From Steroidobacteraceae bacterium (GTDB lineage Bacteria > Pseudomonadota > Gammaproteobacteria > Steroidobacterales > Steroidobacteraceae): a stretch of DNA of 32,553 nucleotides. Location: positions 1 to 32,553 of the forward strand of contig JADGHX010000036.1 in NCBI GenBank assembly GCA_019683695.1, read 5' to 3'. The translations under genes and the position numbers were made by a program. The notes beneath the pieces were generated by a model that was not told the origin of the DNA, did not search any database, and worked only from the letters and a program-made list of their open reading frames with translations. Shown here piece after piece: positions 20,056 to 29,299 of the stretch (its first letter is position 1; the number at the start of each line of letters is the position of its first letter).

Positions 20056-21306
20056 TCATGGATTCGGAGCCGAGCGTTGTCGCCGATCTCCTCGGTGGCG
20101 GCATTCCAGGCGTACAAGCCCCTGGCGAATCACATCGATGAGGCGCTCGACGAACCGTCCGGCATCCTTGTGCTGCTTTCCGTAGTCGGTAGCTAGCCCG
20201 ATGGCCTTGAGAGCACCGTCAGCGACCTGCTCGAGCAGCTCGACGGCAGCCGCTTCACTTCTGCCAGTGGTCCTGCGGATGAAGCGCAGCAGTCGCGCGC
20301 GATCGGGGAACTGCTTCGAGCCGGTGAGCGTGAGTGCGAGAGAGTCCTTGGGCAGATACGGCAACGTCGAGACGATGTCGTAGGCCGGTGCGAGCTCGAC
20401 GACATCTTCGGGGTGTCGATAGAGCACACTGAAGTTCTTCAGGTGCGCATCGCCGTTTCCGATGAGACAGGCGTAAGCGACCATTCGGGCGTACTGCTCG
20501 CGAGCGCGGGCGAGTGTCGACGGAGAAATGAAATCGACCAGGCGCTGCGCGATGCCCTCGTACGAGCCGTCGTAGCGGCCGTGCGCGCGACGCCCATCAA
20601 GCACACAGAAATCCTCGACACCGAGATAGCTGCCGTCCGGCATCAGGTCAAAGCGATCGACCACCAGGAATTTTCGGTTCTCGGACAACCGCACTCGCGC
20701 TGTCTTGATGCCGGCGGCCGCAGCTCCCTGCGTGCAGATGTATTCGTTAGCGGCGAGCTCGGGGTACTCGGCGTCGAAGGTTTTCACGATGTGCGTGGCG
20801 CCCTGGTGGGTCAGCTTCGAGGGCGCTTGCGCTTCACGTACAAGAACCTTCGGCTGAATGCCGGAGATTCCAGAGTACGTCGCAAAACGCTCGAGCAGGT
20901 GCGCAAAGAGATCGGCGCTGCCGCGGTAGGTCAGGATCTCTTCGAGGTTCTGCTCCGGCACGCTCTCGTCGAGATCCTCGCTCGGTGAGTATCGCAGCCG
21001 ACCGATTTGCGCGGCACCGACGATCTGCAGCAGATCCAGATCGTCGAACTCCGGGATCACTTTTGCGAACTGCGTGCGTAATCGCTCTTTGAGCGCGCCC
21101 TCGGGAAGATTCATCTCGAAGATCGGCAGAAGTCCCGCCATCGCATCGTATGGATCGACGCGAATTGGCATGGTCAGCGACACGGCGCTCTCGTCGGAGC
21201 AGCCCGGCCGGTAGCCGAAGAGATAGGTGTCCGCTTGAACGTCCGAGCGCGCGATCGCACCGACGCGCTTTTTGCCGACGAAGACGTTCAGGGGCGGCTT
21301 TTTCAC
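20056..21306 (-). CDS. HipA-family kinase toxin, second and divergent copy
   Basis: The product is 416 residues with a GTG start at 21306, overlapping the stop of its antitoxin (GTGA). The N-terminal subdomain (LNVFVGKKRVGAI, MPIRVDPYDAMAGLLPIFE) is followed by the kinase core: SGISGIQPKVLV (P-loop with candidate autophosphorylation Ser), HIVKTFDAE (ATP Lys), ANEYICTQGAAAAGI, FLVVDRFDL, NGDAHLKNFSV (catalytic Asp/Asn) and YDIVSTLPYLP. All look intact. It differs clearly from the 15.2 kb HipA (SGIQPK versus GAQEK form), so it belongs to another HipA subfamily and probably has another target. The end RHRGDRRQRSAPNP looks like readthrough into non-conserved sequence. Confidence 0.9.
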   Translation of the reverse strand: MKKPPLNVFVGKKRVGAIARSDVQADTYLFGYRPGCSDESAVSLTMPIRVDPYDAMAGLLPIFEMNLPEGALKERLRTQFAKVIPEFDDLDLLQIVGAAQIGRLRYSPSEDLDESVPEQNLEEILTYRGSADLFAHLLERFATYSGISGIQPKVLVREAQAPSKLTHQGATHIVKTFDAEYPELAANEYICTQGAAAAGIKTARVRLSENRKFLVVDRFDLMPDGSYLGVEDFCVLDGRRAHGRYDGSYEGIAQRLVDFISPSTLARAREQYARMVAYACLIGNGDAHLKNFSVLYRHPEDVVELAPAYDIVSTLPYLPKDSLALTLTGSKQFPDRARLLRFIRRTTGRSEAAAVELLEQVADGALKAIGLATDYGKQHKDAGRFVERLIDVIRQGLVRLECRHRGDRRQRSAPNP

Positions 21307-24393: not shown

Positions 24394-24618
24394 TCAGCCC
24401 TCGGCATACGTATGGGCAATCGGCCTCACATAGGCTGACACCGGAATACCACGAACGTATTTCGGCAAGTCGGGTAATGCATGAGAGAAGGATGGACTTA
24501 CCCAGACGAGCAACTCAAAGCCTGAAGCGGCTCCGCAGCACAGCACGGTGAATGCGTTCTCTGGCAGGCCCGAACGATTGATAAACGCTTGCACAATCCT
24601 GTGTTCGCGCGCGCTCAT
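24394..24618 (-). CDS. 74-residue protein coupled to the serine protease gene, unrecognised
   Basis: It begins MSAREHRIVQAFINRSGLPE, then AFTVLCCGAASGFELLVWVS, and ends in RPIAHTYAEG. Its ATG overlaps the protease stop as ATGA, so it is translationally coupled and functionally linked to the protease. It has a double Cys, no signal peptide and a compact alpha/beta look (helix, strand, strand). It might be a protease inhibitor, immunity partner or substrate, but that is a guess from context. About 150 bases separate it from the convergent M23 gene. Confidence 0.6.
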   Translation of the reverse strand: MSAREHRIVQAFINRSGLPENAFTVLCCGAASGFELLVWVSPSFSHALPDLPKYVRGIPVSAYVRPIAHTYAEG

Positions 24619-25706
24619 ATGTTGTGCCCGCTCACGAGCGACACACCCAGCTTGTCGAGAACCGATCGGATCGGCAAAACAAACGTGTAGTCAACGCCTT
24701 GACCCCGAGCCCCTCCAATCAGAATGCCGACAGCGTGGCGCACGCCGTCTTTAACGGCGGTGATAAGCGATCCGGAATCGCCGTGGTCTGAGAACACCTG
24801 AGCCTTCCCTTGGATGATGAAAACCGGATCGAAGTAGACATCTCCGGAGAATTCATAGTCGACCCCTTGCACAGCATACTTGATCCCGAGCGGCCCGTGC
24901 GCTTGGGCGATAACCACGCCTGTCGTGTGACCAGTGGTGCGGCCGACTTTTTCCACTTCCATGTCGGGCTCAATATCTGAGATGTGGTTGGGGGTGTCGT
25001 ACCAAGCGCCTTGGAGAGATGTAACAGTCGCTTCGTCGCGGATTTTGAAGATAGCTGCATCAAGGTTGTTGCTCACATCCGCAGTACCGGGAATCCCGGT
25101 ACTCAACGGAATACTCCTCTCGTGGTAACCGAGAGTTGTCGGGTCGAAGCCGAGGGGTGTCACGTCCAATACACCCGGAGCGAGGATAGGCATTTGCTTT
25201 GGAGCATAGTTGCAGCCACCGGTAATGTGGTTGTTGGTAAGCCCATATAGCACCCCGTCCGGATCTTTCACGAGCGCGCCCAACGTCCCGGCATCGCGGC
25301 AATTGCCGAGCGAGATCGAGCTACCGCAGGCATAGTGATCGACACCTGCTTGTTGGACGACGTAGAAAGGCTTCCCTCGGGCTTGCGGTGGCTCACTACC
25401 GATCCCCTTCGCCACCCCTTGCCGATACTCAATCTCAGATTCGCCAACTTCGTGCGGCAGCAGCGATAGCTGCTTCTTTCCGGGACGAGCCCGGCGCAAG
25501 AACACGATGATCTTGCGCTCCACTTCATTTACAGCCAAGAGCTGCACACCGCGACTTCGCAGTACGTCCTTTGCCGTTTCCGAAATCGAGGCCAGTTCTG
25601 AGGTTCGCGCCTGAGCGTCCGCGGACGGCGGGCGCACGCTTGAGGGAAACAGGTTTTCGGCAACGAGCCACGCGTGCAACACGTCGGCATCCGATTGAGT
25701 ACTCAT
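24615..25706 (-). CDS. Cytoplasmic trypsin-like (chymotrypsin-fold) serine protease
   Basis: The product is 363 residues. The catalytic triad is visible: His160 in LYGLTNNHITGG, Asp216 in NNLDAAIFKI and Ser311 in SDHGDSGSLI. Other landmarks are GSSISLGNCRDAGTLGALV before the His strand and VEKVGRTTGHTTGVV, as in bacterial Nal1-like or phage-island peptidases rather than secreted trypsins. There is no signal peptide. The N-terminal 110 residues are a separate, mostly helical region with a basic RRARPGKKQ. The gene runs leftward from a promoter back-to-back with that of the XRE regulator, and is coupled to the 74-residue gene. A role as an effector or regulated protease of the neighbouring ubiquitin-like system is inferred. 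Confidence 0.85.
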   Translation of the reverse strand: MSTQSDADVLHAWLVAENLFPSSVRPPSADAQARTSELASISETAKDVLRSRGVQLLAVNEVERKIIVFLRRARPGKKQLSLLPHEVGESEIEYRQGVAKGIGSEPPQARGKPFYVVQQAGVDHYACGSSISLGNCRDAGTLGALVKDPDGVLYGLTNNHITGGCNYAPKQMPILAPGVLDVTPLGFDPTTLGYHERSIPLSTGIPGTADVSNNLDAAIFKIRDEATVTSLQGAWYDTPNHISDIEPDMEVEKVGRTTGHTTGVVIAQAHGPLGIKYAVQGVDYEFSGDVYFDPVFIIQGKAQVFSDHGDSGSLITAVKDGVRHAVGILIGGARGQGVDYTFVLPIRSVLDKLGVSLVSGHNI

Positions 25707-26838: not shown

Positions 26839-26868
26839 AAAAGAAAGGCAAGCACAAGTGCTTGCCTT
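26837..26868 (-). terminator. Rho-independent terminator facing left, in the gap after immA
   Basis: On the minus strand AAGGCAAGCA, loop CTTG, TGCTTGCCTT is a perfect ten-base stem followed by the T-rich tract TCTTTTTTAT. No U-tract exists on the plus strand, so it ends leftward transcription. No leftward protein gene lies to the right of it, which points to an antisense or small RNA. Confidence 0.65.
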
Positions 26869-26996: not shown

Positions 26997-27845
26997 ATGA
27001 AGACTGTAATTCATGTGGCGGGTTGCCCGCTCGAAATCTCACCGGGTCTCCACGTCGCCTCGGACATCTATTCGCTGGCGCAAATTGACCATGCGAGCCA
27101 CTACCTACTGCTGGAGCGGAACGACGACCGTGACGTACCGCTCAAACCCAGCGACTTTCTCATTGTAAGTGGGGACGAGCGGTTGTCGGTCGCCTCCGGC
27201 GCCTATCCAGCGGAGGATGATCCGATCCTTCGTAAGCCGTTGTCTCTTGTCATCAATGAGGTACCGCTCAAGGGCGAGCAGCGCTTGTCGCACTCGAAAC
27301 TTACGTTCGACGAGCTCGCAGCCTTAGATCCACACTTTGAACCTGGGGATGGAGTGTTCATCGAGCTCGAGGACATCCCAGACGCTCAGGTGATCGCCGG
27401 CATGCGAGTGGTTGTTCAAGACCACGATCGCTTCTACACCAGCCCTGCAGGAAACGTCGGATTCAACTCGGCGCTCGCTGTGGACCTCGAGCATGTCAGC
27501 AAGCTCTACGGGGAGATTGAGCGAACGGACGAGAACGCACGAAGCTTTATCGTCGTTCGCAAGATGCCGCTACCAAGCCATTGGAATCGTGAGCATACGG
27601 ACGTGCTCATCATCGTGCCCCAAGGCTATCCCATGGCCGCACTGGATATGTTCTGGGTCACGCCTGGGCTCGCGCTCGCTGACGGCAGAGCACCACAAAA
27701 CGCGGATCTGATCGAGCAGTATGCTGGGAATTCTTGGCAACGCTTCTCGTGGCACTACCCGCCGAACTATAGGTGGCATCCGCCGAAGGACAATTTGCTG
27801 TCGCATTTGCGCTTCGTGCGTACGCGATTGAATCAGGCGCACTAG
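26997..27845 (+). CDS. Multiubiquitin-type Ubl domain(s) fused to E2-like (Prok-E2_E type) domain
   Basis: The product is 282 residues. The N-terminus (1-75, KTVIHVAGCPLEISPGLHVA, SDIYSLAQI, SHYLLLERN, SDFLIVSGD) has the strand-strand-helix-strand pattern of the multiubiquitin beta-grasp family. Residues 82-155 (LSLVINEVPLKGEQRL, LTFDELAAL, DGVFIELED, MRVVVQDHDRFYTSPAGNVG) look like a second unit ending in a Ub-like tail. The C-terminal 180-282 (FIVVRKMPLPSHWN, TDVLIIVPQGYPMAALDMFW, ADGRAPQNADL, WQRFSWHYPPNYRW) matches the prokaryotic E2 family E, with its YP-P flap. The only Cys in the protein is C10, so the E2 domain has no catalytic Cys. It is followed after 11 bases by the JAB/E1 gene and should cooperate with it. 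Confidence 0.82.
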   Translation: MKTVIHVAGCPLEISPGLHVASDIYSLAQIDHASHYLLLERNDDRDVPLKPSDFLIVSGDERLSVASGAYPAEDDPILRKPLSLVINEVPLKGEQRLSHSKLTFDELAALDPHFEPGDGVFIELEDIPDAQVIAGMRVVVQDHDRFYTSPAGNVGFNSALAVDLEHVSKLYGEIERTDENARSFIVVRKMPLPSHWNREHTDVLIIVPQGYPMAALDMFWVTPGLALADGRAPQNADLIEQYAGNSWQRFSWHYPPNYRWHPPKDNLLSHLRFVRTRLNQAH

Positions 27846-27856
27846 GAGGAAAGGCG

Positions 27857-29248
27857 ATGATGAACTACGTCGTACGGATTCGGTCGGTTCATCATCGCCG
27901 CTTTGCAGCGTTGCTGCAGGCGGCGATGCCGGCTGAGAGTGTCGCCTTTCTGCTCTGTAGACGATCCGAAGGCGCTCAGCGAATCGTTTATCTCAGCGAT
28001 GACGTTGTTGAGGTCCAGACGCACGAATACCTCAAGCGATCGGACGATATCGCCTCGGTATCCCCTGAATGTATGGCCCGAGTGGCGCGCATTGCTCGGG
28101 AGAGGAATCTAGTCGTTGTGATGATGCATGTGCATCCGATGACGGAGCGGGGGGTTGGCTTTTCTTGGGCAGATCACGCCGGCAATCGGCGTTCGTTCAG
28201 ATTCTTCCACAATCGAATCAAGCAGAGCGAACACCTCTCTATCGTTTGGAATCGCACGATAGATGAATGTGCTTGCCTTGCGTACCGAAGTGATGGCGTT
28301 ACCGATGTCGTCACGTCGGTGGCGGTGATCGATACAGATAGATGGCAACAATGCGTGGTGGCGCACGCTGAAATTGGGAATGCCTATGATCGCCAGGCGA
28401 TGCTTTTGGGCGAGGAAGGCCAGCGACAGCTGGGCCGTTTCAGTCCAATCATCGTGGGCGCCGGCGGAACGGGATGTTTGGTATCGATGGGCCTCGTCCA
28501 TCACGGTGTGCGTCGCTACAAGATCGTCGATGATCAAATGATCGATGACACGAACCTGCCGCGCATCATTAACTCAAGGCCGTCCGATGTCGGTCGCCGA
28601 CACAAAGTCGATATCGCGCGTGAGTATGCGCTGTCGCACGCTCCCGATGCCGACATCGAGGCACTATTCAACCACGTCGAGCACCAGGATGTATTGCCGC
28701 ACCTCATCGCTGCGGATCTAATCGTGGTGTGTACGGACAACACCACATCGCGCGCGCACCTCAATGAAGTCTCGCAAAAGTATCTGATCCCACTGCTCGA
28801 TGTGGGCGTGCAGTTTGCAGTGGACAAATCTACTGGAGAGATTGTCAATGAGGTGGGCCGGATCAACCTGGTGAGACCGGGGACAGCGTGCCTTTGGTGT
28901 AGCGGTCATCTGAGCGCAGCTCGGCTTGCTGCGGAAGCCACCCCAAAGCAGGAGCGAGAGCGCGAGGGGAGCTACCTGAGAGGATTTGACGATCCGCAAC
29001 CATCGATGCTCGCCTTCAACATGGAGCTCGTCGGTCGAGCGTTGCAGATTGTGATCGGCTACGTCACGGGGCTTCTCGCACAGCCCTTGCAGGCCTACGA
29101 ACAACGCACTTTCCTCAAATCGAAGGGCGGATCGTTGATCAGGCACGTTGCGAAACAGCAGTCTGCCGGGTGTTTCATCTGCGGCCTGCACGGAGTCGTT
29201 GGGCAAGGCGATGCGGTGCCCGCGACAATCACTCGGCGAGCGGTTTGA
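27857..29248 (+). CDS. JAB/JAMM isopeptidase fused to ThiF/E1-like ubiquitin-activating domain
   Basis: The product is 463 residues from ATG 27857 (AGGAGG six bases before). The N-terminal JAB domain (1-165) has an intact JAMM set: Glu27, HVHP (91-94), and SWAD (103-106, Asp106). The E1/ThiF domain (180-435) has the adenylation loop IIVGAGGTGC (198-207), Asp225, NLPRI with Arg236, Lys250 and CTDNTTSR (292-299, Asp294), and a zinc site from CLWC (345-348) and CFIC (439-442). An E1 activates the Ubl C-terminus as an adenylate; the JAB domain removes or trims Ubl. A fusion of both is typical of the multiubiquitin/E2 cassettes. It is probably last in the operon, since a strong terminator follows. 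Confidence 0.92.
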   Translation: MMNYVVRIRSVHHRRFAALLQAAMPAESVAFLLCRRSEGAQRIVYLSDDVVEVQTHEYLKRSDDIASVSPECMARVARIARERNLVVVMMHVHPMTERGVGFSWADHAGNRRSFRFFHNRIKQSEHLSIVWNRTIDECACLAYRSDGVTDVVTSVAVIDTDRWQQCVVAHAEIGNAYDRQAMLLGEEGQRQLGRFSPIIVGAGGTGCLVSMGLVHHGVRRYKIVDDQMIDDTNLPRIINSRPSDVGRRHKVDIAREYALSHAPDADIEALFNHVEHQDVLPHLIAADLIVVCTDNTTSRAHLNEVSQKYLIPLLDVGVQFAVDKSTGEIVNEVGRINLVRPGTACLWCSGHLSAARLAAEATPKQEREREGSYLRGFDDPQPSMLAFNMELVGRALQIVIGYVTGLLAQPLQAYEQRTFLKSKGGSLIRHVAKQQSAGCFICGLHGVVGQGDAVPATITRRAV

Positions 29249-29255
29249 ATTTCCA

Positions 29256-29299
29256 AAATGAAGCGGCGGCCATCGAAGGTCGCCGCAGTTGTTTCATTT
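29256..29299 (+). terminator. Strong terminator after the JAB/E1 gene
   Basis: A nine-base GC-rich stem (GCGGCGGCC, loop ATCGAA, GGTCGCCGC; one G-U pair) lies within outer arms AAATGAA and TTCATTT, starting seven bases after the stop. The T-rich 3' side gives a U-tail. Confidence 0.8.

Follow-up and report, generated by a model that had tools for sequence, protein, structure and literature searches.

The pathway that includes operon type 6e is now called Bub, a name reportedly given to it later by the Corbett group, and the mechanism of Ye et al. 2026 is said to proceed through oxyester intermediates. Structures of Citrobacter BubAB and BubCD are present in the PDB (9eae, 9ea8, 9eav and 9d59), and we take them to be those of Ye et al. 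2026 and Gong et al. 2025. Operon type 6e itself was described by Iyer, Burroughs and Aravind (2006; PMC1779556) as polyUbl joined to an E2-like domain without Cys beside JAB-E1, and in the same work such Cys-less domains were judged to be catalytically inactive. A total of 544 Bub operons has since been reported, 219 of which possess CapW or CapH+CapP, with no anti-phage activity of Bub shown so far (EMBO J 2026, PMC13373217).

The locus studied here lies in a window of 32,553 nucleotides, by which we mean the whole stretch of DNA that was analysed. It is the bubAB-bubDC pair of a Bub operon (type 6e of Iyer et al. 2006) and an ordinary member of a known family: tandem Ubl repeats are present and the neighbouring gene encodes a JAB-E1 fusion, although the usual DUF6527 gene is missing. 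The features are listed in Table 1.

Composition of the gene pair and its surroundings

Table 1 Features of the bubAB-bubDC locus and their positions in the window
Feature	Position	Strand	Evidence
CapH-like HTH regulator, 118 aa	25841..26197	+	PADLOC capH E 1.3e-12; HTH_3
CapP-like M78/IrrE peptidase, 214 aa	26194..26838	+	PADLOC capP E 1.2e-16; Peptidase_M78 E 1.2e-11
Perfect 11-bp inverted repeat between capP and bubAB	26845..26868	.	Sequence inspection
bubAB fusion gene, two Ubl repeats and Cys-less E2, 282 aa	26997..27845	+	ORF call, Pfam, local HMM, model, fold matches
Ubl repeat 1, residues 1-67, contains C10	26997..27197	+	Local Ubl HMM E 1.8e-5; strand/helix pattern of model
Ubl repeat 2, residues 80-155	27234..27461	+	Local Ubl HMM E 1.2e-3; model; multi-ubiquitin structures among top fold matches
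Internal Ubl tail RFYTSPAGNVG, residues 145-155, ending at single Gly G155	27429..27461	+	Comparison of free and fused BubA junctions; ends of the Citrobacter BubA and BubB chains in the PDB
Predicted JAB cleavage point G155/F156, in low-confidence linker 154-157	27459..27464	+	Inferred; junction comparison, PDB chains, model
Prok-E2_E (BubB) domain, residues 159-282	27471..27842	+	Pfam PF14462; 9eae_C Z 18.8, rmsd 1.6 Å over 121 residues
Invariant Ser251-x-His253 (TCG TGG CAC), candidate acyl acceptor and base	27747..27755	+	Ser and His shared by 97/97 distinct domains
bubDC, JAB protease and E1 fusion, 463 aa	27857..29248	+	Prok-JAB and ThiF (Pfam); best PDB match Citrobacter BubCD E 2e-23
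JAB/BubD domain, intact JAMM residues E27, H91, H93, S103, D106	27878..28330	+	Alignment with relatives
E1/BubC adenylation domain with CxxC...CxxC pair	28385..29221	+	Pfam, alignment
Terminator-like hairpin, 15 bases past bubDC stop	29263..29286	+	Sequence

The bubAB reading frame begins with ATG, and the sole Cys among its 282 residues is C10 (codon 27024-27026), which lies in Ubl repeat 1; the original prediction had placed it in the Ubl part. That prediction had also placed a Cys-less E2-like domain at residues 180-282; the absence of Cys held true, whereas the start did not, because the domain begins near residue 159. The translation of residues 159-282 contains no Cys, and the catalytic Cys of a Bil-type E2 is accordingly missing. 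Two tandem Ubl-like repeats (approximately residues 1-67 and 80-155) were delimited using the structure model and a local Ubl HMM built from relatives, which matched at 7-59 and 86-152 in the numbering of the stop-to-stop frame; the Pfam scan of the protein gave no match to Multi_ubiq. A separate free Ubl gene, already said to be lacking, was found neither in the window nor, using PF14452, in the organism's own genome, where the search is a weak test because PF14452 also misses the Ubl repeats of bubAB itself.

A Shine-Dalgarno sequence, AGGAGG (27844-27849), precedes the ATG of bubDC by seven bases. The JAMM residues of bubDC are all in place and are conserved across 98 relatives, and invariant residues of the E1 adenylation domain, such as R236, K250, D294, R299 and D315, are present. 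The alignment of E1 relatives revealed no invariant Ser, Thr or Cys in the region of the usual E1 catalytic Cys, the conserved Cys residues being those of two CxxC pairs and a CTDN core; with such an E1, Ubl might pass from the adenylate straight onto the E2 Ser, or some other nucleophile might take part. The nearest JAB-E1 relative of the window is 33% identical. Since the terminator-like hairpin directly follows bubDC, the operon seems to end there.

Upstream of bubAB, the CapH+CapP-like pair represents a regulator feature that is common in Bub operons and non-defining for them. The inverted repeat behind capP may serve the CapH-like repressor as its operator, or it may terminate transcription in either direction. 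Beside capH, a divergent gene (24615-25706, minus strand) encodes a Nal1-like trypsin-type serine protease with a GDSGS motif; it was considered as a substitute for DUF6527 and rejected, as no homologue occurs near any other Bub locus. The window also contains a HipA-type toxin kinase gene (20056-21306, minus strand). Elsewhere in the same genome (contig C205), L131 is a CBASS-like locus in which a CD-NTase-like gene precedes one for a small E2-like protein whose motif HLNPDGTLCL contains a Cys.

The E2 domain and its candidate nucleophile

In the Pfam search, the match to PF14462 (Prok-E2_E) covers residues 163-280 of bubAB (E 6e-25, 87.8 bits against a curated cut-off of 25). The AlphaFold model has a mean pLDDT of 81, rising to about 90 in the E2 part and falling to its minimum at residues 154-157, as in a flexible linker. 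A fold search with the model identified Citrobacter BubB as the closest solved structure of the E2 part (Table 1), while eukaryotic UBC/UEV/E2 folds reached Z values of only about 8.5-10; the best UBC-fold matches after BubB were non-catalytic Tsg101 UEV structures. The multi-ubiquitin filament structures 9d59 and 9d5b were also among the fold matches.

A central question is whether the missing Cys is a local loss or a trait of the whole family. The original prediction had proposed aligning the family at the position of the E2 Cys, and 97 distinct Prok-E2_E domains were collected from a scan of bacterial genome contigs, whole-genome HMM searches and plasmid searches. S251, H253, W260 and D217 are identical in all 97, and no displaced or otherwise conserved E2 Cys column appeared in this alignment: the column richest in Cys held it in 25/97 domains, none exceeded 26%, and 23 domains contained no Cys at all. 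One of the contig search patterns included the Ser, and the 31 rows that did not match this pattern were checked separately; Ser and His were kept in every one (31/31). Therefore, Prok-E2_E is a family without a catalytic Cys, and bubAB follows the rule. According to the alignment, the lack of Cys in its E2 is a family trait and not a local loss. Neither of the two results named beforehand as refuting the original prediction, a family Cys elsewhere or a free Ubl gene close by, was encountered in these searches. The statement that a cysteine thioester relay on the E2 cannot work was thus correct, while the arrangement that had been treated as an anomaly, a Cys-less E2 together with an internal tail, is what the Prok-E2_E/Bub family normally shows.

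Another nucleophile on the E2 had been among the options offered, and it is one of the two best-supported answers; the residue had been left unnamed, and it is the alignment that points to S251 with H253. In the model, S251 comes immediately after strand 245-250, ahead of helix 267-280. By topology, this would correspond to the place of the E2 active-site loop, between the fourth strand and that helix. The window motif is SWH, whereas most relatives have SRH. Profile-profile comparison of Prok-E2_E with Cys-bearing bacterial E2s was tried as a means of placing S251; the YP region alone aligned and the S251 region was not reached. A very divergent E2-like protein located before JAB-E1 (L126:6231-6614, minus strand), with a weak Prok-E2_E match (E 0.07), keeps a Ser and has SRR in place of S-x-H, with one Cys nearby.

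Internal tail, proposed mechanism and alternatives

The Ub-like tail had been described as internal and devoid of a terminal GG, and this is what we observed: RFYTSPAGNVG runs on into the E2 domain with no GG after it. Its reading as an anomaly did not survive the comparison with BubA junctions and PDB chains, as a single Gly is the normal tail end of the Bub family. The Ubl repeats are fused to E2 in 45 of 98 distinct operons and BubA and BubB are separate in the other 53. Fused junctions read TTEG, TTAG, NNG, NYG or similar and are internal, and in separate BubA genes the stop often comes directly behind TTTEG or a few residues later (INPGQN, TFGL). With the slash marking the matching split point, the junction is FYTSPAGNVG/FNSA in the window and SSPPANYG/DG in a relative (L105). 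The natural Citrobacter fusion was split accordingly in the PDB, where the BubA chain ends at G229 and the BubB chain starts at the next residue, E230. Given this tail homology, the Citrobacter split at Gly, the low-confidence linker and the intact JAMM residues, a cut after G155 by the adjacent JAB is the simplest and most likely reading of the junction. Cleavage of the internal tail by JAB, another of the options originally listed, is the second of the two best-supported answers, although the cut itself is predicted from the sequence comparison.

Thus, the following scheme can be suggested. The JAB domain would cut after G155, so that the E2 becomes a protein of its own and the tandem Ubl is set free with one Gly at its C terminus; the E1 domain would adenylate G155; Ubl would be transferred to the E2, forming an oxyester with S251 with the assistance of H253, and would then pass to a target lysine, from which JAB could remove it again. 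Expression would probably be induced by DNA damage via CapH+CapP. As a whole explanation, the combination of Bub identity, JAB cut, adenylation, S251 oxyester and lysine transfer appears probable to us, even with the divergence of the window protein, its SWH in place of SRH, the missing DUF6527 and the inactive-domain verdict of Iyer et al. 2006 counted against it. Both the lack of Cys and the internal position of the tail are settled as family features, and S251, H253 and G155 are named as residues with which the chemistry can be tested.

That verdict forms the core of an alternative put forward by Iyer et al. 2006 (PMC1779556), in which the E2-like domain is an inactive RWD/UEV-like scaffold that binds Ubl, and the E1 transfers Ubl from the adenylate straight to targets. 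The prominence of non-catalytic Tsg101 UEV among the fold matches after BubB is consistent with such a role, as is a family in which Cys is conserved nowhere. However, an invariant Ser-x-His in the loop after the last strand, retained also in the pattern-free rows, exceeds what a scaffold needs, and in the structure 9eae the E2 is seen bound to the E1-JAB protein (the BubCD of 9eae and 9ea8 carries D104A), as expected for a charged E2. We therefore consider the scaffold unlikely. It is more improbable still that the fusion stays uncut, with the tethered Ubl acting in cis or in a non-covalent assembly. Multi-Ubl proteins do form filaments, as in 9d59 and 9d5b, and nearly half of the operons have kept the fusion, but the remainder encode BubA and BubB separately, free BubA often ends at the same Gly, the JAB fused to E1 has all of its catalytic residues, and the Citrobacter fusion was split for structures at the corresponding Gly.

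A similarly low probability is assigned to the locus being a decaying copy. DUF6527 is gone from both the locus and the whole assembly, and the divergent sequence is remote from every relative included in the JAB-E1 tree; yet all frames are open, spacing is tight with a strong Shine-Dalgarno sequence, the JAMM residues and most invariant E1 residues are retained, a terminator-like hairpin lies right behind bubDC, and a second operon without DUF6527 (L107) exists in a genome of the same family. The cut at G155 followed by oxyester transfer through S251 remains our preferred explanation.

Absence of DUF6527 and comparison with known systems

No DUF6527 gene follows bubDC, and none was found in the whole assembly, which is 97.65% complete. 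In the set of 87 loci whose downstream sequence extends for 1500 bases or more, DUF6527 is present in 84 and missing in the window, in L107 and in L015, a viral contig with a Bub-like E2 and a JAB with a shortened E1 frame. DUF6527 was treated as accessory to Bub/type 6e because Iyer et al. describe two or three partner genes. L107 belongs to G618, a single-contig genome from the same bacterial family as the window, and this genome likewise lacks DUF6527. Like the window, L107 encodes a BubAB fusion with two Ubl repeats, a QRFSWH motif and the tail ANYG, together with JAB-E1; in contrast to the window, no CapH+CapP-like neighbours were recognised, and its JAB-E1 is 33% identical. Tentatively, these two loci may represent a stripped-down Bub, in which BubAB and BubDC alone make, charge, conjugate and remove Ubl without DUF6527, a possibility to which we give somewhat less than even weight. 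If it is true, they offer a compact system in which to ask about the role of DUF6527 and about how small a functional ubiquitin-like pathway can be.

In the JAB-E1 tree, the window is distant from all relatives and falls into a clade of ten members (support 0.98) in which FSWH, not WSRH, is the usual E2 motif. Several members of this clade carry a phosphotransferase-like gene ahead of DUF6527; in the Bub operons L120, L121, L122 and L123, this gene (TCAD9/APH) lies between E1 and DUF6527. Gene order differs in L100, where a Ubl-like gene comes after DUF6527 and not before E2. Phage records contained no match to the bubAB fusion, and viral contigs yielded one relative (L015) by E2 alignment and none by the window JAB-E1 or the L105 fusion.

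Among the known systems, Bil (BilABCD) likewise unites Ubl, E2, E1 and JAB in one operon, but its genes are separate and BilB has a catalytic Cys (PMC11354881). Type 6e of Iyer et al. shares with the window JAB-E1 and polyUbl, the latter in some cases joined to an E2-like domain that lacks Cys, and differs in its metal-binding protein (now DUF6527), which the window is missing. Citrobacter BubAB/BubCD has three Ubl repeats instead of two and is followed by a DUF6527 gene, and its plasmid homologue is preceded by a winged-HTH gene, whereas CapH+CapP occupies this place in the window. In both, Ubl repeats are fused to a Cys-less Prok-E2_E domain with Ser-x-His, the internal tail ends in a single Gly, and a JAB-E1 fusion follows.
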